Origin: a bacterium
GTDB taxonomy: Bacteria; Joyebacterota; Joyebacteria; Joyebacterales; Joyebacteraceae
Assembly: GCA_025782395.1 (NCBI GenBank)
Contig: JALGZD010000091.1
Span: 1-64,000, forward strand
DNA length: 64,000 nt
Direction: 5' to 3'
A program made the translations under genes and the position numbers. The notes below the pieces were generated by a model. The model worked only from the letters and a program-made list of their open reading frames with translations, was not told the origin of the DNA and did not search any database. This document shows positions 25,439-40,084 of this stretch, one piece after another; position 1 is the stretch's first letter, and each line of letters starts with the position of its first letter.

Positions 25439-28400
25439 ATGAGCGACAAGAGAAACGACAATGCGCCGGAACGCGAGATGTTGAAAGCGTTCAAGGAAGC
25501 GCTCGAATCGCAGAGCGGCAGAGACGCCGCAGTCGCGGCCGTGCGCCTGGGCGATGTCTATCTCGAGTCCGACAGTTACACTGACGCGCTGAGCTATTTT
25601 GAACGGACCGAGGCCGGTGAGCTTCGCGAGAAGCTCACCGACGCCGAGGCTGCTGGTCTCCTGGTGAGCATCGCGAAGTGCTACCTCGGTCTCGGCAGCT
25701 ACGATGATGCCAGGCGCTACTGCGCGAAGCTGGACGATCTCGATCTCGGAGAAGATGATGATGGATCAGCGTGGGCCGAAGCGAACGTCGTGCTCGCCCG
25801 CGTTGAGATCGAGAGCGGTCGTTACGATGACGCGCTGCGTGCGGCCCGGAAGGGCTACGAGATTCTGAGAACGAGGCCTGACAGCCCGCTTCTGGCGGAG
25901 GCAGGCAAGGTTCTTGGCATCGCGAACGCCGAACTGGGCGACATCAAAGCGGCCCGCGACTACTTCACCGACTACCTGGTGACGCAGAAACGTCTTGGTA
26001 ATGAGGCTGGACTCGCTTCCGCCTACAACAACCTCGGCGTCCTGGCCAAGCGGTCGGGTGACTTCCACGGGGCGCTTGAGTACATCGAAAGCGCTCTCAC
26101 TATCGACCGGAAGCTCGGTCACACGATGGCAATCGCCGATCGTCTCACCAACCTCGGTATCATCCTCTACAAGCTTTCCCGCTGGAGCGAGGCGGAAGAG
26201 AAGCTCAACGAAGCGCGCAAGCTCTATGGGCGGATCGGCGCGACTCGTGGCCTCGTGGCCGCAGAGTCAGCGCTGGGCAACATCTTCCGCGTGCGGCGCG
26301 AGTGGGGTGAGGCACAGAAGCTTTTCCAGAACGCTCTCTCCGCAAGCCAGGAGAAGGGGTACCTGAGGGCCGAAGCTCTGGCTCTGGAGTTCATCGGCCA
26401 CCTGGAGATGGACCGTGGTGAGCACGAGAAGGCGCTGAGGAGACTGAATCGAGCGCTCGGATGTGCGTACAGGCTTTCGTCGAACAGCGATGTTGTCGGT
26501 GAGGTCCTGAGGCGGCGCGCCGAGGTCTACATGGAACTCGGGCGGCTCGACGAGGCCGAGCGTGATTGCTCCGACGGCATCAAGCTCACGCGCGAGATCA
26601 ACGATAGCCTCGAAGAGGGCGCGACCCTCCGCGTGCTGGCCAGCGTCTGCTACGCCAAGGGTGAGCGGACGGCTGCCGAGGTCCTCATCCACAGGGCCGA
26701 AGAGATACTGCGTCGCATTGGGGAATCGTTCGAGCTGGCAAGGGCAGCGCTCGCGGATGGCATCGGTCTCAGGGAATCGTGGACCGGGGACGAACCGCCG
26801 ATCGACCTTATCGAGGCCAGACTGTCGTCCGCGGCCGCGATTTTTGCACGCATCGGCCTCCCGAACTGGGTGGCGCGATGTGAGTTCGAACGCGGGAAGG
26901 CGCTCAAGGTGAGTGGACTGCCCGATCGCGCACGAAGATGGTTGGAGAGCGCAAGACTCAGGTTCGAGGCGGCACACGACAGCCACGGTCTCGCCGAGAT
27001 CGACGCCGCACTCGTGGAACTGGATGTGGTTCTGGCAGACGCGGGAATCGCGCGCCGGGGCCGATACGCACTGATTGCTGAAGGCTACAGATTCCTTGAG
27101 ACGGCCGAACCGAGCCCCGACGATCTCCATGGCTTCGCCGGAGAGCTGGCGGGCGCTCTGTCCGTCGACCGACTGGTCCTCTTTCAGGTCGTCGACGGAG
27201 GGACGCCGTCTGTGGCGACGTCTGTCGACAGGACGGGGAGAGGTGTCTCGGACGTGTGCCGCTTCGTGCGCACGACCGTTTCGAAGCGGGGGCACTCGCG
27301 TCCTCTCGTTGTCAGCAATGGGCACTCCAACGGCGCTTTCACTCCACCGGAAGTGGGCGCGCTCGTGCTGATACCGGCGGAAGTCGGTCTCGACCGCGAA
27401 CGAGTCTACCTTGTGTACGCAGACCGCTCCCGGACCGACAGATCCGTTGCTTTCACGCAGAGCGACGTGGAGTTTGTCGATGCGGCCGGCCGGATCCTGG
27501 GCCTCACGCACTCTCGCGTCGGTGGGGCCATCGGGGGGCGCTCGACCGGGGAGGAGGCCGACAAGCTCCGCGACTCCGCGGAAACGATCGGGATTATCAC
27601 CCGAAGCCCCGAGATGATCCAGATACTCGCGACTGTCGAGCAGCTGAAGAACAGCCGCGTGCCGGTTCTCATACGTGGTGAATCAGGCGTGGGCAAGGAA
27701 CTGATCGCGAAGGCCATCCACTCCGGCAGCAGGACGGCGGCCGGGAGGTTCGTGGCTCTGAATTCCGGCGCCATCGCTCCGAATCTCCAGGAGAGCGAGC
27801 TCTTCGGCCACGTCCGGGGTGCCTTCACGGATGCCGACCGCGATCGTGAGGGTCTAATCGAAGCTGCGGTCGATGGAACACTCTTCCTCGATGAGATAGG
27901 GGAGATGAGCCGGGAGCTTCAGGTGAAGCTCCTGAGGTTCCTCCAGAACGGGGAATTCCGGCGGGTAGGAGAAAGCGTTGCGAGGACCAGCAACGCCCGC
28001 GTCATCTCTGCTACGAACAAGGACCTTCGGAAAGAGGTCGAGAACGGTGGATTCAGGCGGGATCTCTTCTACAGGCTCTGCACCATTACAATTGAAGTCC
28101 CTCCACTCAGGGAGCGCCCGGAGGACATCCCGGCTCTGACGGATCACTTCCTTGAGCACTACGCGAAGCGCGAGGGAAAGACGATCCCAGGGTTCAGCCG
28201 GGAAGTGAAAGAGCTCTTTCTCAGGTACGGATGGCGGGGGAACAACGTGCGGGAGCTGGAGAACGAGGTCCGTCGCGGTGTCGCCCTGACCAGGAGCGGC
28301 GAGACCGTCGGCATCGACAAGATGAGTCCGGAACTCAGGACTCGTGTCGATGTGGGACCCGGTACCGAGTTCGATGAGAGTTGTCCCCGGTCGCTCAAGG

Positions 28401-28540
28401 ATGAGGTCAGCATGCTGGAGCGAAGCAGGATCCTTGAGGCGCTGGATCGCACGGGATGGAATAAGCAGCAGGCAGCTCAGATCCTGGGCGTGTCACGTAC
28501 CGGCCTGCATGCGAAAATGAAGAAGTATGGAATCGGGTAG
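25439..28540 (+). CDS. TPR-GAF-AAA+ (sigma-54-interacting type)-Fis transcriptional regulator
   Basis: 1033 residues. Residues about 15-500 are many tetratricopeptide repeats (LASAYNNLGVLAKRSGDFHG style). A GAF-like domain follows near 545-700. The AAA+ core has Walker A GESGVGKE (near 747), Walker B GTLFLDEIGEM and FRRDLFYRL. The Fis-type HTH is at the end (NKQQAAQILGVSRTGLHAKM). In the L1 loop the sigma-54-contact motif GAFTGA reads GAFTDA (near 794). That change occurs in some relatives and raises doubt about sigma-54 dependence. It is a one-component regulator with no receiver domain. A terminator follows at 28611-28633. Confidence 0.88.
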   Translation: MSDKRNDNAPEREMLKAFKEALESQSGRDAAVAAVRLGDVYLESDSYTDALSYFERTEAGELREKLTDAEAAGLLVSIAKCYLGLGSYDDARRYCAKLDDLDLGEDDDGSAWAEANVVLARVEIESGRYDDALRAARKGYEILRTRPDSPLLAEAGKVLGIANAELGDIKAARDYFTDYLVTQKRLGNEAGLASAYNNLGVLAKRSGDFHGALEYIESALTIDRKLGHTMAIADRLTNLGIILYKLSRWSEAEEKLNEARKLYGRIGATRGLVAAESALGNIFRVRREWGEAQKLFQNALSASQEKGYLRAEALALEFIGHLEMDRGEHEKALRRLNRALGCAYRLSSNSDVVGEVLRRRAEVYMELGRLDEAERDCSDGIKLTREINDSLEEGATLRVLASVCYAKGERTAAEVLIHRAEEILRRIGESFELARAALADGIGLRESWTGDEPPIDLIEARLSSAAAIFARIGLPNWVARCEFERGKALKVSGLPDRARRWLESARLRFEAAHDSHGLAEIDAALVELDVVLADAGIARRGRYALIAEGYRFLETAEPSPDDLHGFAGELAGALSVDRLVLFQVVDGGTPSVATSVDRTGRGVSDVCRFVRTTVSKRGHSRPLVVSNGHSNGAFTPPEVGALVLIPAEVGLDRERVYLVYADRSRTDRSVAFTQSDVEFVDAAGRILGLTHSRVGGAIGGRSTGEEADKLRDSAETIGIITRSPEMIQILATVEQLKNSRVPVLIRGESGVGKELIAKAIHSGSRTAAGRFVALNSGAIAPNLQESELFGHVRGAFTDADRDREGLIEAAVDGTLFLDEIGEMSRELQVKLLRFLQNGEFRRVGESVARTSNARVISATNKDLRKEVENGGFRRDLFYRLCTITIEVPPLRERPEDIPALTDHFLEHYAKREGKTIPGFSREVKELFLRYGWRGNNVRELENEVRRGVALTRSGETVGIDKMSPELRTRVDVGPGTEFDESCPRSLKDEVSMLERSRILEALDRTGWNKQQAAQILGVSRTGLHAKMKKYGIG

Positions 28541-29514: not shown

Positions 29515-29689
29515 TTTATGTGTTGTGCCCGTTTGCGCTGCCTGCGATGGAGTTGACGCATGCTCCACACGAATTGGTCGGTAACTTGCTTCTACCAGGC
29601 TTCCCCGGGAGCGCGGCCGGTCTGTGGTCAGCGGCGACGCCGGCTCCGAATCGCGGATTTCAGTCCCCTGTCCTCAACGCCTGATCGTC

Positions 29690-29773
29690 GGATCTTCCCC
29701 AACGGGTCATTCCAGTCGGATCTTCCCCAACGGGTCATTCCAGTCGGATCTTCCCCAATGGGTCATTCCAACA
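29690..29773 (+). repeat. 28-bp tandem repeat, three copies
   Basis: Units at 29690-29717, 29718-29745 and 29746-29773 (last one diverged at its 3' end). The core is GGATCTTCCCCAACGGGTCA. The repeat is 35 bp before the chosen start of the radical SAM fusion. It could be regulatory, or could be an in-frame N-terminal extension of that protein. Confidence 0.85.
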
Positions 29774-29806: not shown

Positions 29807-32173
29807 ATGCGAGAGGAGCTGCGCGATGTCGCGGCCGGCTTCGAGTCGTCCGTCAGTCGGCTTCGGTCGAACGGCACGATGAAGGGCGCGATGTCCGACA
29901 GGGGCATCAGACCGACCAACATCGCCGTCGCGCTTCCATTCCTTCTGATCGAAGGCATCCGGTTCGAAGGCGACCGGGATGCGGCGAGAGCGATGTCTCT
30001 GGGGAACGCATTCGCTACGGCGCATTTCCTCTCCCAGGATGAGCTTCTGGACGGCACAAGGGACGCCGGTCCGAGGGCGCTTGGGTTCTGCGACAGGTGT
30101 CTGTCCGAGTTCGTTCGCCTGTACGCCGAACTCGTCCCCCGGGAGAGCGAGTTCTGGCAGCACTACGACCGCTTCATGGACGAGTACTTCGCCAGCCTCG
30201 AGTGGGAGCTGTCCGTTCACGACGAAGATGGAGGTGTCAGGGCTGTCGGGGATGATGAGCTCGACGGGACGCTTCTCCTTCTGGGAAGGAAGATGTCGCC
30301 ACTCAAGGTCACGGCCGCTGCGGTAGCCGCGCTTGGGGGGCGGCCGGATCTGCTTCCAGCTATGGAGCGGCTGATCGAGGAGTACCATGCCGGCTACCAG
30401 CTGGCTGATGACCTGGTCGATCTTCACGAGGATCTGGCAGCAGGCCGTCCGTCGGCAACTGTGTGGATGCTCCTTCGGTGGAGCGGCCGCACGGAGCTTC
30501 CAGAAAGGCTCTCGGCGAGAGGTCTTCTCAGGATGGCGGTCGAGTCAGGCGCACTGCAGAGAGTCACCGGGACAATGGAGTCATGCTACGCGCAGGCGCT
30601 CAGCACGGCTGATGATCTTCCTTGTCCAGAGCTCGCTGAGTTTATGAGCACTGTGCTTCGCAACGCGGTCCTCGGCAACACCCGAATGACGCGCCGCCTC
30701 TCACTTGAGGCGCTTGCCGCCGGGAGCAGTCCGGCAAGTGGGGGAGACCAGGACGGCCGGGAACCACACGATTCAATCGAGCCCGCGATCCTTGCGGCGC
30801 GCGAGCTGCATACGTTCAGCGTGGACGGAAAAGAGCTCGCGTTCGATCCCGCGTCCGGTTTCTTCTTTGAAGCAGACACCGTCGCGGCAGATACCATCAG
30901 GTGGCTCAGGAGAAGCGCGCCCGCGACCGACCGAGCGGTCCTCGAGCTCAATCACGGCGCCACCTCAGTTCGAACCGCCATCTCCGAAGTAGCAGGACTG
31001 ACGCCGGGCAGGAAGCCCTGTCGAGACGGGACGCGGGCCGGGGAGATCGAGATCTCCATCAAGTCGTTGGCGCTCAACGTGAGCAGCGCCTGCAACCTCT
31101 CGTGTACCTACTGTTACCTCGGAGCAATGTCAGGTTCTCAGACGGGCGCCGGACGTCGTAGAGAGAACGCGGCAGGTGAGACCATGGCGGAAGATGTCGC
31201 TTTCAGGGCCATTGATCTCCTGATACGCGAGTCGTTCGGAGAGCCGGAGATATCGATGGTCTTCTTCGGCGGAGAGCCACTTCTCGCGACGGACATGCTC
31301 CGTCCAGTCGTTCGCTACGCGAGAGAGCGCGCCACCGAGGTGGGGCGGAAGATCCGCTTCCACATGACAACGAACGGAACACTGCTTACGCCCGGCACCG
31401 CCAGACTTCTTGCCGAGCTCGGCATTGACGTCATGGTCAGCATGGACGGCTGCGAAGAGGATCACGACGCCAACCGGCGCTTCCGCAACGGCAAGGGATC
31501 GTACGCGCATATCGTCCGCAATCTGATGGAGCTGCCTCCCGGTTTCGGCGTGGGGGTCCGGGCGACCGTGACGGAGTCGTCGCGACCTCTGACCGAGCTT
31601 GTGGCGCATCTTGCAGGGCTCGGTTTTTCCACCGTGCACCTGGCTCCGGTGAGCGGTACAAGTATGAGCAGAGAGTTCGCGGAGCGGCTCTGTTCTGAAT
31701 TCGAAGCGCTTGCTATAACGGAACGTGACGCACTTCTGAGAGGTTCGCGCCCGTCGGTGAGCAGTTTCACCGAGCCGATGGCGCTCCTGGCGCGGGGGTC
31801 TCGCCGCGATTCTCCGTGTGGTGCCGGGGCGCGCTATCTCTCCGTTGCGACGGACGGGACACTCTACCTCTGCCACAGATTCGCAGGTGACGATCGCTTC
31901 GCCGTCGGACACGTGGCAGCCGGCATCGACCGTGGGGCGATCACGTCGCTGCTCAAGAGGCTGCGAGCAGCATCGTCCGCTTGTCTGGATTGCTGGGCAC
32001 GTGACCTGTGCGGGGGGCCGTGCCATCATGATCTTGAGACGATGCCGGGAGAATCGGTGGGGCATGATGCGGTGCGATGCTCCGTCAGGAGGAGGATCAT
32101 CGAGCTTTCGATGTGGTTGTACGCGGAGCTGCCCGAGGAGCAGAGGAATCGCCTGCGGACGAGCGCGAAGTAA
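29807..32173 (+). CDS. Fusion of isoprenoid-synthase-like domain and radical SAM-SPASM peptide maturase
   Basis: About 788 residues. Residues 1-300 look like a class 1 isoprenoid (trans-prenyltransferase) fold. The first Asp motif is degenerate (QDELLDG, near 78) and the second is YQLADDLVDLHEDLAAGRPS (near 198). Residues about 320-415 contain a leader-recognition-like segment (LHTFSVDGKELAFDPASGFFF), as in SCIFF/QhpD-type maturases. The radical SAM core starts CNLSCTYC (near 430) with FFGGEPLL. It ends in a SPASM domain with cysteines in SPCGAGA, LYLCHR, CLDCWARDLCGGPC and RCSV. Such enzymes modify peptides. Two Cys-rich peptides follow. Start is uncertain: ATG 29807 has no clear SD, and the frame stays open to 29624. 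Confidence 0.85.
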   Translation: MREELRDVAAGFESSVSRLRSNGTMKGAMSDRGIRPTNIAVALPFLLIEGIRFEGDRDAARAMSLGNAFATAHFLSQDELLDGTRDAGPRALGFCDRCLSEFVRLYAELVPRESEFWQHYDRFMDEYFASLEWELSVHDEDGGVRAVGDDELDGTLLLLGRKMSPLKVTAAAVAALGGRPDLLPAMERLIEEYHAGYQLADDLVDLHEDLAAGRPSATVWMLLRWSGRTELPERLSARGLLRMAVESGALQRVTGTMESCYAQALSTADDLPCPELAEFMSTVLRNAVLGNTRMTRRLSLEALAAGSSPASGGDQDGREPHDSIEPAILAARELHTFSVDGKELAFDPASGFFFEADTVAADTIRWLRRSAPATDRAVLELNHGATSVRTAISEVAGLTPGRKPCRDGTRAGEIEISIKSLALNVSSACNLSCTYCYLGAMSGSQTGAGRRRENAAGETMAEDVAFRAIDLLIRESFGEPEISMVFFGGEPLLATDMLRPVVRYARERATEVGRKIRFHMTTNGTLLTPGTARLLAELGIDVMVSMDGCEEDHDANRRFRNGKGSYAHIVRNLMELPPGFGVGVRATVTESSRPLTELVAHLAGLGFSTVHLAPVSGTSMSREFAERLCSEFEALAITERDALLRGSRPSVSSFTEPMALLARGSRRDSPCGAGARYLSVATDGTLYLCHRFAGDDRFAVGHVAAGIDRGAITSLLKRLRAASSACLDCWARDLCGGPCHHDLETMPGESVGHDAVRCSVRRRIIELSMWLYAELPEEQRNRLRTSAK

Positions 32174-32183
32174 GACTGACAGC

Positions 32184-32309
32184 GAGGCAAGGGTGCGGGA
32201 TTGTCCGCGGGTGGAAGCGGGCGGAGAGGCAAGGGTGCGCGACCGTCCGCAGGTGGAAGCGGGCGGAGAGGCAAGGGTGTGGGACCGTCCGCGGGTGGAA
32301 GCGGGCGGC
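32184..32309 (+). repeat. 42-bp tandem repeat, three copies
   Basis: Units at 32184-32225, 32226-32267 and 32268-32309. Each begins GAGGCAAGGGTG and ends GGTGGAAGCGGGCGG. Each can form a small CCGC/GCGG hairpin. The repeat fills the space between the maturase stop and the first precursor peptide. The unit is a multiple of three and the frame is open, but translation is not supported. It may tune expression of peptide relative to enzyme. Confidence 0.85.
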
Positions 32310-32335
32310 GAAGCGGATGTGCGGGAGAGGGGGTG

Positions 32336-32521
32336 ATGGGGTTGAAGCACATGAAGCTGGCGAACGGCATCAGAGGGGCGGCCGAAGTCGCGGCGCAGTC
32401 GGAGGTGAGTGACCTGTGTTTCGTCGACTACTCGCAGTGTCCTTCGTCGGATCTCTGCTGGATTGTGGATGCCGGGTGCGGATGCGAGCAGCATGACAAC
32501 TGCTTTGTTGATACGGGGTAG
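32336..32521 (+). CDS. RiPP precursor peptide A, Cys/Asp-rich
   Basis: 61 residues. The leader is KHMKLANG at residues 4-11, then Ala/Ser/Glu-rich. The core (27-61) has Cys at 28, 35, 41, 48, 50 and 56, each followed by Asp: C28-D31, C35-D39, C41-D45, C50-D54 and C56-D59. This CX2D/CX3D spacing resembles ranthipeptide precursors. No signal peptide, as expected for a cytosolic substrate of a radical SAM enzyme. SD AGAGGGGG precedes ATG 32336; ATG 32351 is also possible but has no SD. It lies directly downstream of the maturase. Confidence 0.8.
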   Translation: MGLKHMKLANGIRGAAEVAAQSEVSDLCFVDYSQCPSSDLCWIVDAGCGCEQHDNCFVDTG

Positions 32522-32559
32522 GTGTGGTGGGCAGTCGCGTACGGGAAGGAGATCAAGGA

Positions 32560-32727
32560 ATGAATCATCTCAGGCTGGCGAACAGCGGTTCGGATTCGTC
32601 CGGCGCAGCACCGGATTCGCTCCTGTGCTACATTTTCGTTGACTGGGGAGACTGCGGTTCTGTCGACCAGTGTGGGTTTGACTTCGGCAGCTGCGGCGGG
32701 AGAGACGTCTGTCTCGTCGACTACTAG
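32560..32727 (+). CDS. RiPP precursor peptide B, Cys/Asp-rich
   Basis: 55 residues. The leader motif NHLRLANS (2-9) matches KHMKLANG of peptide A. The core has Cys at 23, 32, 38, 45 and 51, each followed by Asp: C23-D28 (CX4D), C32-D36 and C45-D49 (CX3D), C38-D41 and C51-D54 (CX2D). It ends CLVDY, where peptide A ends CFVDTG. AAGGAG lies 8 nt before ATG. Gene order is maturase, A, B, then propeller protein and ABC exporter. A second, diverged substrate in the same locus argues these are real precursors. Confidence 0.8.
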   Translation: MNHLRLANSGSDSSGAAPDSLLCYIFVDWGDCGSVDQCGFDFGSCGGRDVCLVDY

Positions 32728-32736
32728 GAGGAAGAG

Positions 32737-34209
32737 ATGAGAGCCGTGGGTGGGTGTTCTGCGGGGGGCGTAGAGAGGCGATCGACGTGGGTCATCACCG
32801 TCGCTGCAATCCTGTGCGCTGGGGCACTCACCGCGGCGCAGGTTGATGCCGGCGTGGGTGCATCCTCCGCCGCAGCGGGGCTTGGTGGCGTGGAGGTTCG
32901 CTCAATAGGGAGCGTTGCTGATTCGACGGTTGCCGGCACAGTAAGGATAGATGAATTGTGGGTGACAAGCCTTGACGTTTCGGGGGCGAACATCGCCGAC
33001 GCGCTTCTTGCGGATCTCGACGGAGATGGAGTCCGCGAGATCCTCGTGACAATGGGAAGGGGGAGGGAACTCACGACGGTGGTCGCTCTCGAGCCGGAAT
33101 CCGGCACTGAACTCTGGCGTGTCGTCTACACGAGTGCGGCCAGCGCGCTCACGTCCGATCTCTTCGCGTCCCCGGGAGAGGAGGTCATGACGTGCTTCGG
33201 GCACAGGGTCCTGGTTCAGAGCGGCGCAAGGGGCAAGACCCTCGCCGAGCGCGAGCTTCCAGGGAAGGGTCGTGGCATCGGCGTTGTGCGAACGACATCC
33301 GGAGAACTGCTCATCGTTCTGACTGTCCGCGGCGACGAGAGCGACGACCTCGTGGCTTTGGAACTTCCCGGACTGGTCGAGCGCTGGAGAAGAACGGCTC
33401 GACACGACGGCAGCGTGTTTGGGGACGGGTTGTCGAAACTCATATGCGCCGACGTCGACGGGGACGGCGCGTCGGAAATCCTGGTTGTGGAGAACGCAAA
33501 CATCCTCAGATGTGTGTCATCGGCCGGCGAGGATCTCTGGAGCTCGGAGCTGGGAAAGAAGAGTCGCATGCATCCCGAGGGTGTCGCCAGTAATCTGCCC
33601 GTTGTCGCAGACCTGACGGGCGATGGATACAACGAGGTCGCCATCGGTTGCTTCGCCGGCGCACTTATTACCCTCGATGGGGAGACCGGTGATGAATTGG
33701 TTCGCATGCGGTTCGGCAACGAATACCACAGGGAAGTGATCGCAAAGAGACAACTGCCGCGTTTCATCAGGAACATGATCGCTGGAACGGGGGAACCGAT
33801 AGGCGAAATGGCGTCCGTCGACGTGGATGGCTCAAGCGGCAGTGAACTCGTCTTTGGCTGCAGTGACGGCCTGTTGTACGCGGTGGCGCCCAAGTGGGAG
33901 AAGCGTGTCTGGGAACTCGACCTCGGGGGTGATGTCTACGATGCGCCGGTGCCCGTCGAACTGGCGCACGTTGGATTGGACGGAGGCGTCGTACCGTGTC
34001 TCGTGGCATGGCATGAGCGACGCGTCGCAGTGCTGGCGCGCGGGACAGGCGAAGAGATTGTCGCTCTTCCTGATGATGTGGGGGCGTCTTGTGTGCTCGT
34101 ATGCGATGTGAACGGCGACGGCAAGGACGACCTCATCGTTGTCAGCGCGAGCACTCAGAACGTCAGGGCGCTGGAGTTTCGCACGGTGGTGGACGAGGGG
34201 AAACGATGA
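32737..34209 (+). CDS. Secreted FG-GAP/VCBS-type beta-propeller protein of the RiPP locus
   Basis: 490 residues. The signal peptide is about 15-38 (STWVITVAAILCAGALTAAQ). The rest is a propeller with repeated calcium-loop motifs: ADLDGDGVREI, CADVDGDGASEI, ADLTGDGYNEV, VDVDGSSGSEL and CDVNGDGKDDL. There are also PQQ-like blades (LITLDGETGDEL). Such proteins bind partners or surfaces. No protease motif is seen. AGGAGG lies 7 nt before ATG, 9 bp after peptide B, so they are one transcript. It may bind the product outside the cytoplasm or help export, an inference. Confidence 0.82.
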   Translation: MRAVGGCSAGGVERRSTWVITVAAILCAGALTAAQVDAGVGASSAAAGLGGVEVRSIGSVADSTVAGTVRIDELWVTSLDVSGANIADALLADLDGDGVREILVTMGRGRELTTVVALEPESGTELWRVVYTSAASALTSDLFASPGEEVMTCFGHRVLVQSGARGKTLAERELPGKGRGIGVVRTTSGELLIVLTVRGDESDDLVALELPGLVERWRRTARHDGSVFGDGLSKLICADVDGDGASEILVVENANILRCVSSAGEDLWSSELGKKSRMHPEGVASNLPVVADLTGDGYNEVAIGCFAGALITLDGETGDELVRMRFGNEYHREVIAKRQLPRFIRNMIAGTGEPIGEMASVDVDGSSGSELVFGCSDGLLYAVAPKWEKRVWELDLGGDVYDAPVPVELAHVGLDGGVVPCLVAWHERRVAVLARGTGEEIVALPDDVGASCVLVCDVNGDGKDDLIVVSASTQNVRALEFRTVVDEGKR

Positions 34210-34246
34210 GGAGCGCAGGATTCGTCGAATCGGCAGAGAGGAAGCG

Positions 34247-34963
34247 ATGAAGATCGTGGAGTTCTCCGATGTCGGAAAGCAATTCCGGCGTCGCGGCCAG
34301 CGGCTGGATGCACTGAGAGACCTCAGCTTCACGGCGGCGCCGGGCGAAGCGATCGCTCTCGTCGGTCCAAACGGAGCCGGGAAGAGCACGGCGCTCCGTA
34401 TCGCAGCCGGCCTCCTGATACCATCGGGCGGCCGCGCCGTTGTCTGCGGCTTTGACGTGAGGCATGCGGCGACGCACGTTCGACGCCGTGTAGGGGTCTC
34501 GCTCGGTGCCGAACGCTCGTTCTACGTAAGGCTGACGGCAAAGATGAACCTTGCGTTCTTCGGGCGTCTCGCCGGGCTTCGGGGCAGGGAGTTGTCTTCG
34601 GCCGTGGACTGCGTGGCGGACGAACTGGATCTCGGACCGTGGCTGAATATGCGCGCTGGGCGACTGTCCAGGGGGACGGGCGCGCGGCTGGCCGTGGCGA
34701 GAGCTTTCCTCGGGGCCCCGTCGCTTCTTCTTCTCGATGAGCCGTTTGCCTCTCTGGACATTACCGGGCGCGCTCTCGTGTGTTGCGCGATCGAGCGGAG
34801 GCTCCGCGACGGGTGCGCTCTCGTGATGGCGACTCACAGAATGGAGGAATCGCGCTTCTGCGAACAGATCGTCGAGTTGCCGTCACCCGTGTCCGATCCC
34901 ATCTCGTCGTCCGGGATGTCGGGGCAGCGACGGTCCGCCCAGCCGTCAACGGGGCACGCGTGA
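34247..34963 (+). CDS. ABC transporter ATP-binding protein of the RiPP locus
   Basis: About 238 residues. Walker A is GPNGAGKST (near residue 43), Walker B LLLLDEPFASLD and the H-loop ATHRMEE. The signature reads LSRGTGARLAVARA; the canonical form is LSGGQ, so it is diverged but recognisable. It pairs with the permease that starts at its stop (TGATG overlap). ATG 34247 has AGAGGAAG upstream; the 36-codon upstream extension has no SD. It is an ABC-2-type exporter subunit, probably moving the modified peptides. Confidence 0.85.
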   Translation: MKIVEFSDVGKQFRRRGQRLDALRDLSFTAAPGEAIALVGPNGAGKSTALRIAAGLLIPSGGRAVVCGFDVRHAATHVRRRVGVSLGAERSFYVRLTAKMNLAFFGRLAGLRGRELSSAVDCVADELDLGPWLNMRAGRLSRGTGARLAVARAFLGAPSLLLLDEPFASLDITGRALVCCAIERRLRDGCALVMATHRMEESRFCEQIVELPSPVSDPISSSGMSGQRRSAQPSTGHA

Positions 34964-35775
34964 TGTCACGGGACGTCATCAACCTCCTCTGGGCGTTTGT
35001 CGTGAGGAGTGCCGCAACGTACGCAAGCTACCGGTCTAAACTGTTCCTGGGATTTGCATCACTTCTCCTGTCCGCTATCACGTTCCTGTTTGTGGGAAGG
35101 GCCGTAGAACTGGCGGGGTCCGGTTTCGAGGACGAAGTGGGGATGACCTACACGGCCTTCGCACTCATCGGCGTGATTGTGCACGGTGTTGCTGCTTCCG
35201 GGTTGCATGCTTTCCGCAAGACCGTCAGGCGGGAACAATTACAGGGCACGTTCGAGCAACTCGTGTCGAGCGGCAGGCCCGTCATATTGCTCGTGCTCCT
35301 TGCGGGGCTGTCGGAGATCATCATCGCGCAGGGCGTGGCGCTCGGACTGGCAGTGGTTGTTGTAGGCCTCCTGGGTGTGACGATTCCGGTTACGCTCACG
35401 GCGCTGGCGGCAGTGGCCCTCTATTCTCTGACGATGTGTGGGATCGGGTTCATCTCGGCCGGGCTTACGATGGTTTTCAAGGAGGGAGAGCCGGTGTCGT
35501 GGGCGTTCGGAGCACTCTCGGGGTTGCTGGGCGGTGTCTACTTCCCGCTCTCGCTCCTCCCGGTCTGGTTGCGGAGAGTGGCGTGGATGCTTCCGACATC
35601 GCACGTTCTTGCGGTGGTCCGCGCCGGATTCCGCGGGCCGGCTCACGATGTCGACGCCGCCACTCACCTCATCTTTCTCCTCATTGCGGCGGCTGTCTCA
35701 GTGGTAGTGGGTATCGTTGTCCTCAGGCGTGGTTGCGATCACGCCAGGGTCACCGGGACGCTCCGAGAGTACTGA
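34963..35775 (+). CDS. ABC-2-type transporter permease of the RiPP locus
   Basis: 270 residues with about six membrane segments (LFLGFASLLLSAITFLFVG, YTAFALIGVIVHGVA, VLLAGLSEIIIAQGVALGL and later ones). The ABC-2 motif near the end reads FPLSLLPVWLRRVAWMLPTSH. Its ATG overlaps the TGA of the ATPase gene. Together they form a complete exporter without an attached peptidase domain, so leader removal needs another protease. Confidence 0.85.
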   Translation: MSRDVINLLWAFVVRSAATYASYRSKLFLGFASLLLSAITFLFVGRAVELAGSGFEDEVGMTYTAFALIGVIVHGVAASGLHAFRKTVRREQLQGTFEQLVSSGRPVILLVLLAGLSEIIIAQGVALGLAVVVVGLLGVTIPVTLTALAAVALYSLTMCGIGFISAGLTMVFKEGEPVSWAFGALSGLLGGVYFPLSLLPVWLRRVAWMLPTSHVLAVVRAGFRGPAHDVDAATHLIFLLIAAAVSVVVGIVVLRRGCDHARVTGTLREY

Positions 35776-35961: not shown

Positions 35962-37809
35962 TTGAAAAGGTTCCGAGACACATACATCCCCATCACATCG
36001 ATCATCGTCGCCATCTTCATTGTCGCGGCTGTGGTCGTGTTTACGTCGATGCGCGACATTGATAGAGGGCGGCGACATGTGGCGGACGGCCTGGAGCGCA
36101 AGGCCGGCGCCATGCTCATGTTTCTGAGTACCGATCTCAGGACCGAACTCGTCTCGCCACGATGGCAACTGTCGCGTCTTGAGTTCTTCCTCTCCGAGGC
36201 TGCCAACCGCGGCCAGGCTGAGTACCTGGCCCTTCTCGATTTCGATGGAACCGTCGTCGCGCACAGCGATACCACGATGGTCGGCGCGCCTCACATCGGC
36301 TGGTTGCCGGGGGAAGGCGAGCCCGATGCGCCGCCCATCCGCAGGCGGCGCGTTACCATCGACGGGCACGCCCTCCAGCAGTACGTGACGGCCTTCGATA
36401 TACATCCAGCAATACTCTGCGAGAGGCCGCCACGAAGGTTCGGTCACAGGATGAGGCCACGCTGCGACGTGGAGGCCGTCGCCGAACGCCTGTCCGAGCT
36501 TCTGGAAAGGCCGATCAACGTATCGCATCCAATACGCCTCTACGGTGTCGTGGCGCTCGACCCCACGGAGATAGAGAGGACGTTCCTTCTCTCCCGCAAT
36601 CGCACTATCCTCCTCGGCGTGATCCTGATTATCGTCGGCGGAGCTGCCATCTACTTCCTCTTTGTGATGTCCGCATACCGATCGACGCAGACGACGCTTG
36701 CGAACATGCGCACGTATACGGACAACGTCATCGAGAGCATGGCGAACGGGCTGATATCCGTCGACGCCGACAGTCGCGTTGTGACCGTCAACTCCCGGGC
36801 GCGTACCCTGTTCGGATTGGGTGACGCGAAGGTCGCCGGCCGAGGCCTTGTCGATGTAGCCGGTCTCGAGCCGGGCCCCGAGCGGGCGGGAGTGGATCTG
36901 GTGCTTCGGGGTGAGAAGAACATTGTTGAAGTGGAGGCGACAGCCATCGTCGCGGGCGAGGAGATCCCTGTCTCGGTCAGCGCATCGCTGCTCCGGGACG
37001 AGGACGGCGAGCGAGCGGGAACGGTTCTGCTCTACCAGGACCTGCGCGAGATCGAGGCGCTCAAGGCCGAGCTGGAGCGAGGACGTCACCTGGCTTCCCT
37101 TGGCAGGCTGGCGGCCGGCGTGGCTCACGAGGTGCGGAATCCTCTCAGCTCGATCAAAGGATTTGCGCAGTTCCTCCGCAGCAAGTTCAACCCGGGCTCC
37201 AAGGAGGAGCGATACTCCGACATCATGATCGAAGAGGTTGAGCGACTCGATCGAGTCGTGCAGGAGCTGCTTGACTTCGCAAAGCCTGTCGTCGCCGAGA
37301 TCCGTCCGAGCGACACCAACGCAATCGTTGAAGAGGCGCTCTCGCTCATGTCGGAGGACGCGGATTTCAAAAACGTCAGAATCGTCACCGAACTGTCCGA
37401 TGGGTTGCCGCGCATCCTTGCGGATCCGAGACAGGTGCGCCAGGCGCTCCTCAACGTGCTCCTGAACGGGGTGGAGGCGATGGAGGACGGCGGGACGCTG
37501 AGGGTGAAGACGGGAATCGTTGTTCCCGAGGACGGCACAATCCCGGCGATCGCAAGCGAACGACCGGAGCAGGTCGTCATCGATATCACAGATACCGGTG
37601 AGGGGATGAACGAGCAGGCACTCGCGAAGCTGTTCGAACCGTTCTACACAACGAAACCGACTGGAACCGGTCTTGGATTGACGATAGTCTCGCGACTCGT
37701 GGAGCAGAACGCCGGGCACATCCATGTTGTGAGCGCAGAGGGGAAGGGAACCACGTTCTCCATGGTGTTCAGAACATCGCCCGGGGAATCGGGCACAGGT
37801 TCGCGTTAG
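35962..37809 (+). CDS. Membrane sensor histidine kinase (NtrB/ZraS type)
   Basis: 615 residues. Two membrane segments (about 9-29 and 212-234) flank a periplasmic domain of about 180 residues. A PAS domain follows (about 255-360, IESMANGLISVDADSRVVTVN). The HisKA H-box is GVAHEVRNPLSSIKGFAQF, with His about 389. The ATPase has N-box LLNVLLNGVEAM, DTGEGM and GTGLGLTIV. It would phosphorylate the response regulator encoded 71 bp downstream. TTG at 35962 lies 9 nt after GGGAG. The cysteines in the sensor region (near 155-170, ILCERPPRR and RPRCD) could bind metal. Confidence 0.9.
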   Translation: MKRFRDTYIPITSIIVAIFIVAAVVVFTSMRDIDRGRRHVADGLERKAGAMLMFLSTDLRTELVSPRWQLSRLEFFLSEAANRGQAEYLALLDFDGTVVAHSDTTMVGAPHIGWLPGEGEPDAPPIRRRRVTIDGHALQQYVTAFDIHPAILCERPPRRFGHRMRPRCDVEAVAERLSELLERPINVSHPIRLYGVVALDPTEIERTFLLSRNRTILLGVILIIVGGAAIYFLFVMSAYRSTQTTLANMRTYTDNVIESMANGLISVDADSRVVTVNSRARTLFGLGDAKVAGRGLVDVAGLEPGPERAGVDLVLRGEKNIVEVEATAIVAGEEIPVSVSASLLRDEDGERAGTVLLYQDLREIEALKAELERGRHLASLGRLAAGVAHEVRNPLSSIKGFAQFLRSKFNPGSKEERYSDIMIEEVERLDRVVQELLDFAKPVVAEIRPSDTNAIVEEALSLMSEDADFKNVRIVTELSDGLPRILADPRQVRQALLNVLLNGVEAMEDGGTLRVKTGIVVPEDGTIPAIASERPEQVVIDITDTGEGMNEQALAKLFEPFYTTKPTGTGLGLTIVSRLVEQNAGHIHVVSAEGKGTTFSMVFRTSPGESGTGSR

Positions 37810-37880
37810 CGGCTGCCCTGTCAGGGCAGCATGCAGTGTCAGGGTAGTGAGCATCCGAGCGTATCGGGGAGCATGTTTGG

Positions 37881-39221
37881 ATGATGGAGAACCACCTCAG
37901 AATCCTTGTGGTCGATGACCAGTCGAGTGTACGTGAGCTTCTTAAGGCCGTGCTCGAGAGCGATGGTCATGAGGTAGAGGTCGCGCCCGAGGGAGAGAGC
38001 GGCGTCGAGAAGCTGGCCGACGGGTTTCACGACCTGGTCATCATGGATATCCGGATGCCGGGCATCAGCGGCATTGAGGCCCTGGGACGCATGAAGAAAG
38101 CGAGCCCGGACTGCGGCGTCGTCATGATGACCGCCTACGCGTCGGTCGAGACTGCGGTCGAGGCCATGAAGCTCGGGGCATTCGACTACATCACGAAGCC
38201 GATAGACATCGATGAAGTCCATTCGGTCGTCTCGAGATTCGCCGACGAGTCGTCCCGGGTACCCGAGGAGAAGCCGCCCGAGATCGAGCCCTCGAGCGAT
38301 ATCGTCGGGGCGAGCGTCGCGATACGAGAGGTGTTGGAGCTGGCTCGCCGCGTCGCCACGAGCGATGCCGCGGTTCTCATCCTCGGCGAGAGCGGGACGG
38401 GCAAGGAGCTTATAGCGCACGAGGTACACCGGGCGAGCCCACGCGAACACAAGCCGTTTGTGGCCGTGAACTGTTCGGCCATTCCTGGAGGTCTTCTCGA
38501 GAGCGAGCTCTTCGGTCACGAGAAGGGTGCTTTCACCGGTGCGGGTCGGCAGAAGCGTGGGCGATTCGAGCTGGCGGCGGGCGGGACCATCTTCCTGGAC
38601 GAGATCGGTGACATGTCGTCCGAGCTGCAGGCCAAGCTGCTCCGATTCCTGCAGGATCACACCCTTCAGCGCGTGGGCGGATCGGTCGACATCACTGTCG
38701 ACGTCCGCATAGTGGCCGCGACCAATCGGGATCTGGACGCGGCGGTCGCCGACGGCAGCTTCCGTGAAGACCTGTACTTCCGACTCAACGTTGTGACAAT
38801 CGCGATACCACCGCTTCGGGATCGCAAGGAGGACATACCGCTCCTCGTGGAGCATTTCCTCAAGAAGCACGCCGAGAAAGGCAGAAAGCCGAAGAGGATG
38901 TCACCCAAGGCGATGCGGGTCATGATGAACTACGACTGGCCCGGGAACGTCCGGGAGCTCGAGAACGCCATACACCGTGCCGTGGTTCTCTCTCGTGGCG
39001 AGACAGTATTCCCCGAGCAGCTTCCGGCAAAGCTTCAGTCGGTTCCAGACTCCGAGGTCGACAGAGAGAAGACGGGTATGACGATCCGCGAAATGGAGCG
39101 TGACATCATCATCAAAACCCTCGCGCAGACCGAGGGCAACAGAACTCACGCGGCGAAGATTCTGGGCATCTCGCGCAGAACTCTCCAGAACAAGATCAAA
39201 GAGTACGAGATCGAATCCTGA
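37881..39221 (+). CDS. Sigma-54-dependent response regulator (NtrC/ZraR type)
   Basis: 446 residues. The receiver domain has phospho-acceptor Asp56 (VIMDIRMPG). The AAA+ domain has Walker A GESGTGKE (near 168), an intact sigma-54 contact GAFTGA (near 216), [11 protein letters not shown] and [13 protein letters not shown] Fis HTH ends it ([20 protein letters not shown]). Unlike the TPR regulator upstream, its GAFTGA is canonical. It probably activates the sigma-54 promoter at 39402-39417. Confidence 0.93.
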
Positions 39222-39223
39222 TC

Positions 39224-39326
39224 GCGCAGATTCTGCGCACCTTCCAGCCGTTCTACCTCCCCCAAATGGGCAGTTCCTTCACGCCAGGGTTTTTCCGAAG
39301 CCGCCAACGCGCCTCTCATCTGAGAG
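39224..39326 (+). promoter_or_regulatory. Two dyads, candidate enhancer sites for the response regulator
   Basis: GCGCAGATTCTGCGC (39224-39238) and CTCTCATCTGAGAG (39313-39326) are palindromes that lie 80-190 bp upstream of the sigma-54 promoter, a normal distance for activator binding. They are not alike in sequence, so at most one may be the real site; the first may instead be a terminator stem. Confidence 0.3.
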
Positions 39327-39401
39327 AGTCAATCGTGTAACGTCCTGTTCTATCAGGTTTTATGTCGAGCAGACGAAAGCCGCACACTGTTCCGGCACGA
39401 T

Positions 39402-39417
39402 TGGCACCTCGGTTGCT
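39402..39417 (+). promoter_or_regulatory. Sigma-54 promoter
   Basis: TGGCAC, 5 nt (CTCGG), TTGCT matches the consensus TGGCACN5TTGCW at every defined position. It lies about 135 nt before the ZraP-like gene and downstream of a sigma-54 activator gene. Confidence 0.85.
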
Positions 39418-39550
39418 GTAAAGAGGTGTGTGAGAGCTCCTCCGGCCGGTATTCTGAGACGTCGTGCGGCTGACCGTGCCGGCCGGAAGGGCAGACAAGC
39501 AGCAGAAGAACCCGGGAGGCAAGACCTCCCACTTCCGAGAGGGGAAGAAG

Positions 39551-40084
39551 ATGAAAAGGAAGAAGATCCTCGTGATTGCGGTGCTCGCCCTCGCGATGAC
39601 TACAATGGCCGCCGCGCCGGCGATCGCGGGTAGAGGTGGACGGGGCGGAGCCATGGGCGGCGGCATGCGCGGGGGGCCGGCGATGGGGCGCGGCGCGATG
39701 CCCACGTTCACCGAGGAGCAGCAGGAGAAGATACAGGAGATCCGGAGCAGCTTCGATGAGGACCGTGTTGAGCTCGCCAACCGGATCAAGGTGATGCATC
39801 TCGAGATGCGGGAGCTCATCACGGGCGACAACCCCGACTTTGGGAAGCTCGAGCGGATGATCGACGACATCTCCAAAGAGCGCGCGGAGATGATGAAGAT
39901 AGGGATCCGTCAGCACGTTGCGGTTCGGAAGATCCTGACCGACGACCAGAAGGTGTTGTTTGACCAAAGCTTCGGGATGCGGATGAGTCATGCCGGTATG
40001 GTTGGTAGCATGGGTGGTCCTGGAGTAATGGGCGGCAGGCCTGGTGGTGGGAGGATGGGCGGTCGCGGTGGAATGGGAATCTAG
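39551..40084 (+). CDS. Spy/ZraP-like periplasmic protein, Gly/Met-rich
   Basis: 177 residues. Signal peptide about 1-26 (VLALAMTTMAAAPAIAG). The middle has helical LTxxQ-like elements (FTEEQQEKIQEIRSSFDEDRVELANRIKV and ILTDDQKVLFDQ) typical of the Spy/CpxP/ZraP family. Both ends are Gly/Met/Arg-rich (GGRGGAMGGGMRGGP; GGPGVMGGRPGGGRMG), which suggests metal or surface binding. It probably acts as a periplasmic chaperone or metal buffer that feeds back on the sensor, as ZraP does. ATG follows GAGAGGGGAAGAAG. Confidence 0.82.
   Translation: MKRKKILVIAVLALAMTTMAAAPAIAGRGGRGGAMGGGMRGGPAMGRGAMPTFTEEQQEKIQEIRSSFDEDRVELANRIKVMHLEMRELITGDNPDFGKLERMIDDISKERAEMMKIGIRQHVAVRKILTDDQKVLFDQSFGMRMSHAGMVGSMGGPGVMGGRPGGGRMGGRGGMGI

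Follow-up and report, generated by a model that had tools for sequence, protein, structure and literature searches.

A predicted RiPP operon of the Joyebacterota in which a radical SAM-SPASM maturase is fused to an isoprenoid-synthase-like domain

Layout and conservation of the locus

The window analysed here is a stretch of 64,000 nucleotides (contig JALGZD010000091.1 of assembly GCA_025782395.1) from a 2.9-Mb draft genome of the Joyebacterota, whose nearest named relatives are metagenome-assembled genomes labelled Candidatus Eisenbacteria. It carries a set of genes that is almost certainly an operon for a ribosomally synthesized and post-translationally modified peptide (RiPP). Its six members, all on the + strand, encode a fused synthase (the maturase) with an N-terminal isoprenoid-synthase-like half and a radical S-adenosylmethionine (SAM)-SPASM half, two small precursor peptides (pepA and pepB), a secreted propeller, and the ATPase and ABC-2 permease of an exporter (Table 1). 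An earlier interpretation of the same DNA, the sequence-only reading, had described six consecutive genes on one strand, three of them with short or overlapping junctions, and the six genes are borne out as described. The ATPase and permease genes overlap by 1 nt (TGATG), while the gaps measure 9 nt between pepB and the propeller gene, 37 nt between the propeller and ATPase genes and 38 nt between pepA and pepB. The maturase and pepA are separated by 162 nt containing a 42-bp tandem repeat in three copies (32184-32308). Another tandem repeat (28 bp, three copies, 29687-29770) lies just 5' of the maturase start. This start is uncertain: the earliest start codon of the open frame is at 29624, and the ATG at 29807, about where homology to relatives begins, has no clear ribosome-binding site. 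No peptidase gene is present in the operon.

Table 1. Features of the operon and of the fused synthase, in window coordinates or residue numbers
Feature	Position	Strand	Basis or remark
Fused synthase (maturase), 788 amino acids from ATG at 29807	29807..32173	+	homology, domains, fold
trans-Isoprenyl-diphosphate-synthase-like domain, probable Trp prenyltransferase	residues 1-~310 of fused synthase	+	predicted fold, motifs
First Asp-rich motif (FARM), Q77-D78-x3-D82	30035..30052	+	D1 and D5 of DDxxD invariant
Second Asp-rich motif (SARM), H194..Y197-Q198-x2-D201-D202-x2-D205-x3-D209	30386..30433	+	
N-region of maturase family	residues ~333-417 of fused synthase		
Radical SAM + SPASM	residues ~418-777 of fused synthase		
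Radical SAM CxxxCxxC (C429, C433, C436)	31091..31114	+	invariant
SPASM cysteines C671, C689, C726, C729, C735, C739, C758	31817..32080	+	all invariant
Precursor A, 61 amino acids	32336..32521	+	core pattern, dN/dS, conservation
Precursor B, 55 amino acids	32560..32727	+	core pattern, dN/dS, conservation
Secreted FG-GAP/PQQ-like beta-propeller	32737..34209	+	domain matches, signal-peptide-like N-terminus
ABC exporter ATPase, DrrA-like	34247..34963	+	ABC_tran 1.3e-22
ABC-2 type permease	34963..35775	+	ABC2_membrane 3.4e-9

The locus was compared in 20 genomes from 8 genera, which make up the whole family sample and the whole phylum sample. The maturase, whole or partial, is found in all of them. 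The small peptides lie beside it in 19 and are missing only from a 57%-complete genome in which the contig breaks off within the maturase; the conservation check proposed by the sequence-only reading thus came out in its favour. Wherever the contig is long enough, the genes follow one order: maturase, A, B, in some cases a third peptide C, propeller, ATPase and permease, with no more than three paralogous precursors per genome. One genome (G016) carries the operon in two copies (L045, L049, L050), each with an A-type peptide only. Further precursors were not found elsewhere in the source genome, where the match on C217 is weak, and a peptide-like match in G049 was rejected as chance since it lacks both the leader and the C-D pattern. 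No close relatives of the fused maturase were found outside the phylum, only matches to its radical SAM half at 29-34% identity. Gene order is shared with other genera over a large part of the window (about 18-57 kb).

Precursor peptides and the radical SAM half

The precursors share a conserved N-terminal leader (MKHLRLANG). Precursor A begins MGLKHMKLANG and its core carries the modules CFVD, CPSSD, CWIVD, CEQHD and CFVD; precursor B begins MNHLRLANS and carries CYIFVD, CGSVD, CGFD, CGGRD and CLVD. Each core includes one Trp. Both are real, constrained genes, since within the genus their reading frames show dN of 0.02-0.10 against dS of 0.16-0.74, five C-x2-4-D pairs arise in only 17 of 100,000 core shuffles for A and 6 for B, and the locus recurs in the 20 genomes. 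When the 40 cores of types A, B and C are considered, all contain five C-x(2-4)-D modules. Their alignment has ten invariant columns, alternately Cys and Asp (C28 D31 C35 D39 C41 D45 C50 D54 C56 D59), and the leader Asn is nearly invariant. Class A follows the spacing Cx2D, Cx3D, Cx3D, Cx3D, Cx2D and classes B and C the spacing Cx4D, Cx3D, Cx2D, Cx3D, Cx2D, both with small variations. Trp is the sole residue whose count is constant, with exactly one per core (40 of 40). It follows the third Cys in A and the first paired Asp in B; the usual Trp is lost in the A copies of G016 and in the C peptide of G004, where a replacement Trp occurs in D-W-C.

The residues of the ten invariant columns are also those expected of metal ligands, which would suit unmodified Cys/Asp-rich metal-binding peptides. 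Such an explanation is barely credible in view of the invariant linkage of the peptides to a PapB/QhpD-like maturase with an intact SPASM domain.

The second half of the maturase matches the radical SAM profile PF04055 (7.8e-17). For residues 333-777 the best families are QhpD (TIGR03906, 2.9e-76, the best NCBIfam score) and PapB (NF047865, 6e-76), with 257 bits against a cut-off of 453 and 255.8 against 340, respectively. On these scores this half is a relative of PapB, itself no PapB. A 17-member maturase profile recovers CteB (5wgg) at 3.9e-80, the fold of the radical SAM half, which falls in the QhpD/PapB/CteB branch of radical SAM-SPASM maturases. QhpD introduces Cys-Asp/Glu thioethers (PMC8326336), as does PapB, which tolerates Cys-Xn-Asp with n = 0-6 (PMC9413430). 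From the module pattern and this assignment, Cys-Asp thioethers are very probable in the product.

The high rank of QhpD raises a second possibility, that the peptides serve, as QhpC does, as cross-linked small subunits that dock on the propeller to form an enzyme, and so would not be free natural products. Quinohemoprotein amine dehydrogenase (QHNDH) itself pairs a small Cys-Asp/Glu-linked subunit with a propeller subunit. However, neither the six genes nor their immediate neighbours include the diheme cytochrome, the FAD monooxygenase or the subtilisin-like protease expected as partners, and no QHNDH subunit is encoded. The propeller is FG-GAP/PQQ-like and its profile matches no QHNDH subunit in the PDB. 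Such a complex would also have to accommodate up to three paralogous peptides per genome and leaves the isoprenoid domain unexplained; it is quite improbable.

The isoprenoid-synthase-like half and its relatives

No Pfam family matched residues 1-~320 of the window maturase. An AlphaFold model built from the alignment of this domain (the N-domain) has a mean pLDDT of 88.8, and its top Foldseek matches in the PDB include polyprenyl, geranylgeranyl, octaprenyl and farnesyl diphosphate synthases and related prenyltransferases. The TM scores (target) are 0.73 to MoeN5, the best match, and 0.64 to Ord1, a Trp farnesyltransferase (PMC13290415). A profile search of the PDB aligned its SARM region with that of a geranylgeranyl diphosphate synthase (E 0.005). 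The model therefore confirms an isoprenoid-synthase fold with the key Asp residues kept, and the guess of the sequence-only reading about this domain was right. D78, D82, K167, Q198, D201, D202, D205 and D209 are invariant over the 8 genera and nearly so in relatives outside the phylum. Alignment with the latter places D78 and D82 at positions D1 and D5 of the FARM, the loss of either of which abolishes ComQ function (PMC5331326). In Trp prenyltransferases a Gln shortly before the SARM has been implicated in indole recognition, and the characterised trans-isoprenyl-diphosphate-synthase-like prenyltransferases all target Trp (reviewed in PMC13290415). The Gln at this place in the N-domain is the invariant Q198. 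Ordinary synthases often have a Gln there too, so that Q198 is not diagnostic by itself. Two polyprenyl synthases encoded in the source genome could supply the prenyl donor.

Among 386 genomes, a domain profile detected four homologues outside the phylum (G071, G345, G374 and G073). Those of G071 and G345 are stand-alone proteins of 311-315 amino acids adjoining NHLP-leader precursors above the TIGR03793 cut-off, which end GSW and CGPWRD. In the family of G071 a stand-alone protein of this kind occurs in 207 of 250 genomes, and at each of the 30 loci inspected the neighbouring NHLP peptide has a Trp within its last 15 residues; as the best-scoring ones, drawn from few genera, these loci are not 30 independent cases. 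Two NHLP peptide types are seen at these loci (L125-L154), ending GSW/GIW or CGPWR[STD]. Their neighbourhoods match the PalQ/PalX pair (PMC10853753). The G073 homologue is a 693-amino-acid fusion with a squalene-hopene-cyclase-like domain, an architecture corresponding to ChrPC (PMC13290415). On its 5' side lies a 55-amino-acid peptide ending EWRVDWYF and on its 3' side an ABC ATPase, an FG-GAP propeller, an ABC-2 permease and a daptide/epipeptide-type M50 protease, so that the N-domain, propeller and ABC-2 exporter recur with a different partner domain. The locus itself (L119, 3996-10452) has the appearance of a RiPP cluster. The N-domain was not found in 244 further genomes of that phylum. 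Since its outside relatives adjoin RiPP precursors, the N-domain is, by homology and gene context, a member of a RiPP-associated family. Together with the motifs this makes the N-terminal half a probable Trp prenyltransferase.

Several observations weigh against an enzyme that both cross-links and prenylates its peptide. The radical SAM half stays under the curated cut-off of each named maturase, and the links to PalQ, ComQ and ChrPC rest on fold, motif and neighbourhood. The FARM lacks its second Asp and the RRG motif that would follow it. The SARM is of the DDxxD type (DDLxD), in contrast to the ND/GD that ComQ needs (PMC5331326), an objection softened by the DD likewise kept in the relatives linked to NHLP peptides with Trp. 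The G374 homologue, which resembles terpene synthases, has as its neighbour an Os1348-type NHLP peptide that contains no Trp. Finally, only a few independent events (A, B/C and two replacements) underlie the one-Trp rule, which is therefore suggestive and no statistical proof.

An alternative is a plain ranthipeptide, the N-domain being a catalytically dead or non-prenylating fold that serves to dimerise the enzyme or to bind the peptide and the Trp being retained for packing. The incomplete FARM would agree with this, as would the fact that the usual ranthipeptide maturases function without such a domain. It is nevertheless unlikely given the eight residues invariant over 8 genera, the Trp-ended RiPP precursors flanked by N-domain relatives, and a Trp count that remains fixed while the position moves. 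Prenylation of the core Trp, as judged from motifs and context, is likely.

In the mechanism we propose, the maturase would hold the conserved leader while its radical SAM-SPASM half, acting as modelled on PapB and QhpD, would join Cys-S to Asp-Cbeta, with one thioether for every C-x2-4-D module and five at most. The N-terminal half would use an allylic diphosphate to prenylate the single core Trp, as do PalQ, ComQ and the P domain of ChrPC. The lipidated, cross-linked peptide would then be exported by the ABC-2 transporter, and the secreted propeller would act outside the cell, where, as the sequence-only reading suggested, it may bind the product. The complete scheme, a RiPP operon with Cys-Asp thioethers and Trp prenylation carried out by one fused enzyme, seems fairly likely from comparative evidence. 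Of the sequence-only reading, the Cys-Asp cross-linking RiPP operon with export is supported, while the isoprenoid half and the constant Trp had been left without explanation.

Comparison with known systems and neighbouring genes

The system resembles freyrasin (PapA-PapB) in its QhpD/PapB-branch maturase, its repeated C-xn-D modules and its short Cys-rich precursor. However, PapA has six C-x3-D modules whereas here there are five with mixed spacing (x2, x3, x4), a short LANG leader, a fused N-domain and one Trp. With QhpD it would share Cys-Asp thioethers. CteB, a SCIFF maturase, is similar in the fold of the radical SAM half but its substrate is a six-Cys SCIFF peptide rather than a series of C-xn-D modules. 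PalQ/PalX of Paenibacillus belongs to the same isoprene-synthase superfamily, and N-domain relatives adjoin NHLP peptides that have a Trp at or close to the end; PalQ, in contrast, stands alone and needs a terminal Trp, where the present enzyme is a radical SAM fusion facing an internal one. ChrPC (P-C prenyltransferase-cyclase) similarly joins a trans-isoprenyl-diphosphate-synthase-like P domain to a second modifying domain, and the same arrangement is seen in the G073 relative, whose neighbours include propeller and ABC genes, but the second domain is here a radical SAM maturase and not a terpene cyclase. ComQ-ComX also combines a small precursor with a Trp prenyltransferase of this fold, and FARM D1 and D5 are kept. 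ComQ differs in its ND/GD pseudo-SARM and in having neither fusion nor thioethers; DDLxD does not follow that pseudo-SARM (PMC5331326), and ComQ membership was rejected.

No report of a radical SAM/SPASM enzyme fused to a prenyltransferase or polyprenyl synthase in RiPPs was found in a partial full-text collection, which supports the novelty claimed earlier for this gene set. Because prenylated lanthipeptides are known (PMC12715784), the combination of prenyl and thioether groups is not new as such; what is new is the radical SAM fusion and the Cys-Asp scaffold. We would regard the system as a new hybrid between RiPPs of the ranthipeptide type and Trp-prenylated ones, not as a wholly new class. 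If correct, two separately known peptide chemistries are joined in one enzyme, and a lipidated poly-thioether RiPP is predicted from a radical SAM enzyme, of which the literature searched held no report. A RiPP would then be among the genes conserved throughout an entire candidate phylum, in contrast to the patchy distribution usual for clusters of this sort, and a large group of NHLP-linked isoprenoid-synthase-like proteins would be tied to other RiPP systems. The phylum-wide inheritance at a syntenic place hints faintly at a core role in the envelope or in communication, less at a sporadic bacteriocin. On balance we lean slightly towards a broader view, in which a bifunctional synthase making a prenylated poly-thioether peptide is a core, vertically inherited trait of this uncultured phylum and the set of prenyltransferase domain, propeller and ABC-2 exporter is portable with different modifying domains, as in G073.

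Upstream of the operon, a protein with TPR and sigma54-activator domains (25439-28540) is present in all relatives, separated from the maturase by a gap of about 1 kb of similar length. A strict pattern detected no sigma54 promoter between this gene and the operon in any of the 20 loci.

Downstream lie a histidine kinase (35962-37809) and a sigma54 regulator (37881-39221) that keep their place in most genomes. Following the ComQ/ComX/ComP/ComA gene logic (PMC4008528), they might sense the prenylated peptide in a ComQXPA-like quorum-sensing system. This is highly unlikely: the kinase is 1.9 kb away in G006, and, as in Zra systems, the pair adjoins a Spy/ZraP-like gene that has a sigma54-like site. 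Moreover, other genera show high synteny around the locus; against this baseline adjacency says little, and the pair was not retained as a peptide receptor. The region from 35962 to 40084 consists of an NtrBC/Zra-type pair and, 3' of it, the gene of a Spy/ZraP-like heavy-metal-resistance protein; an exact sigma54-like site is located at 39402.

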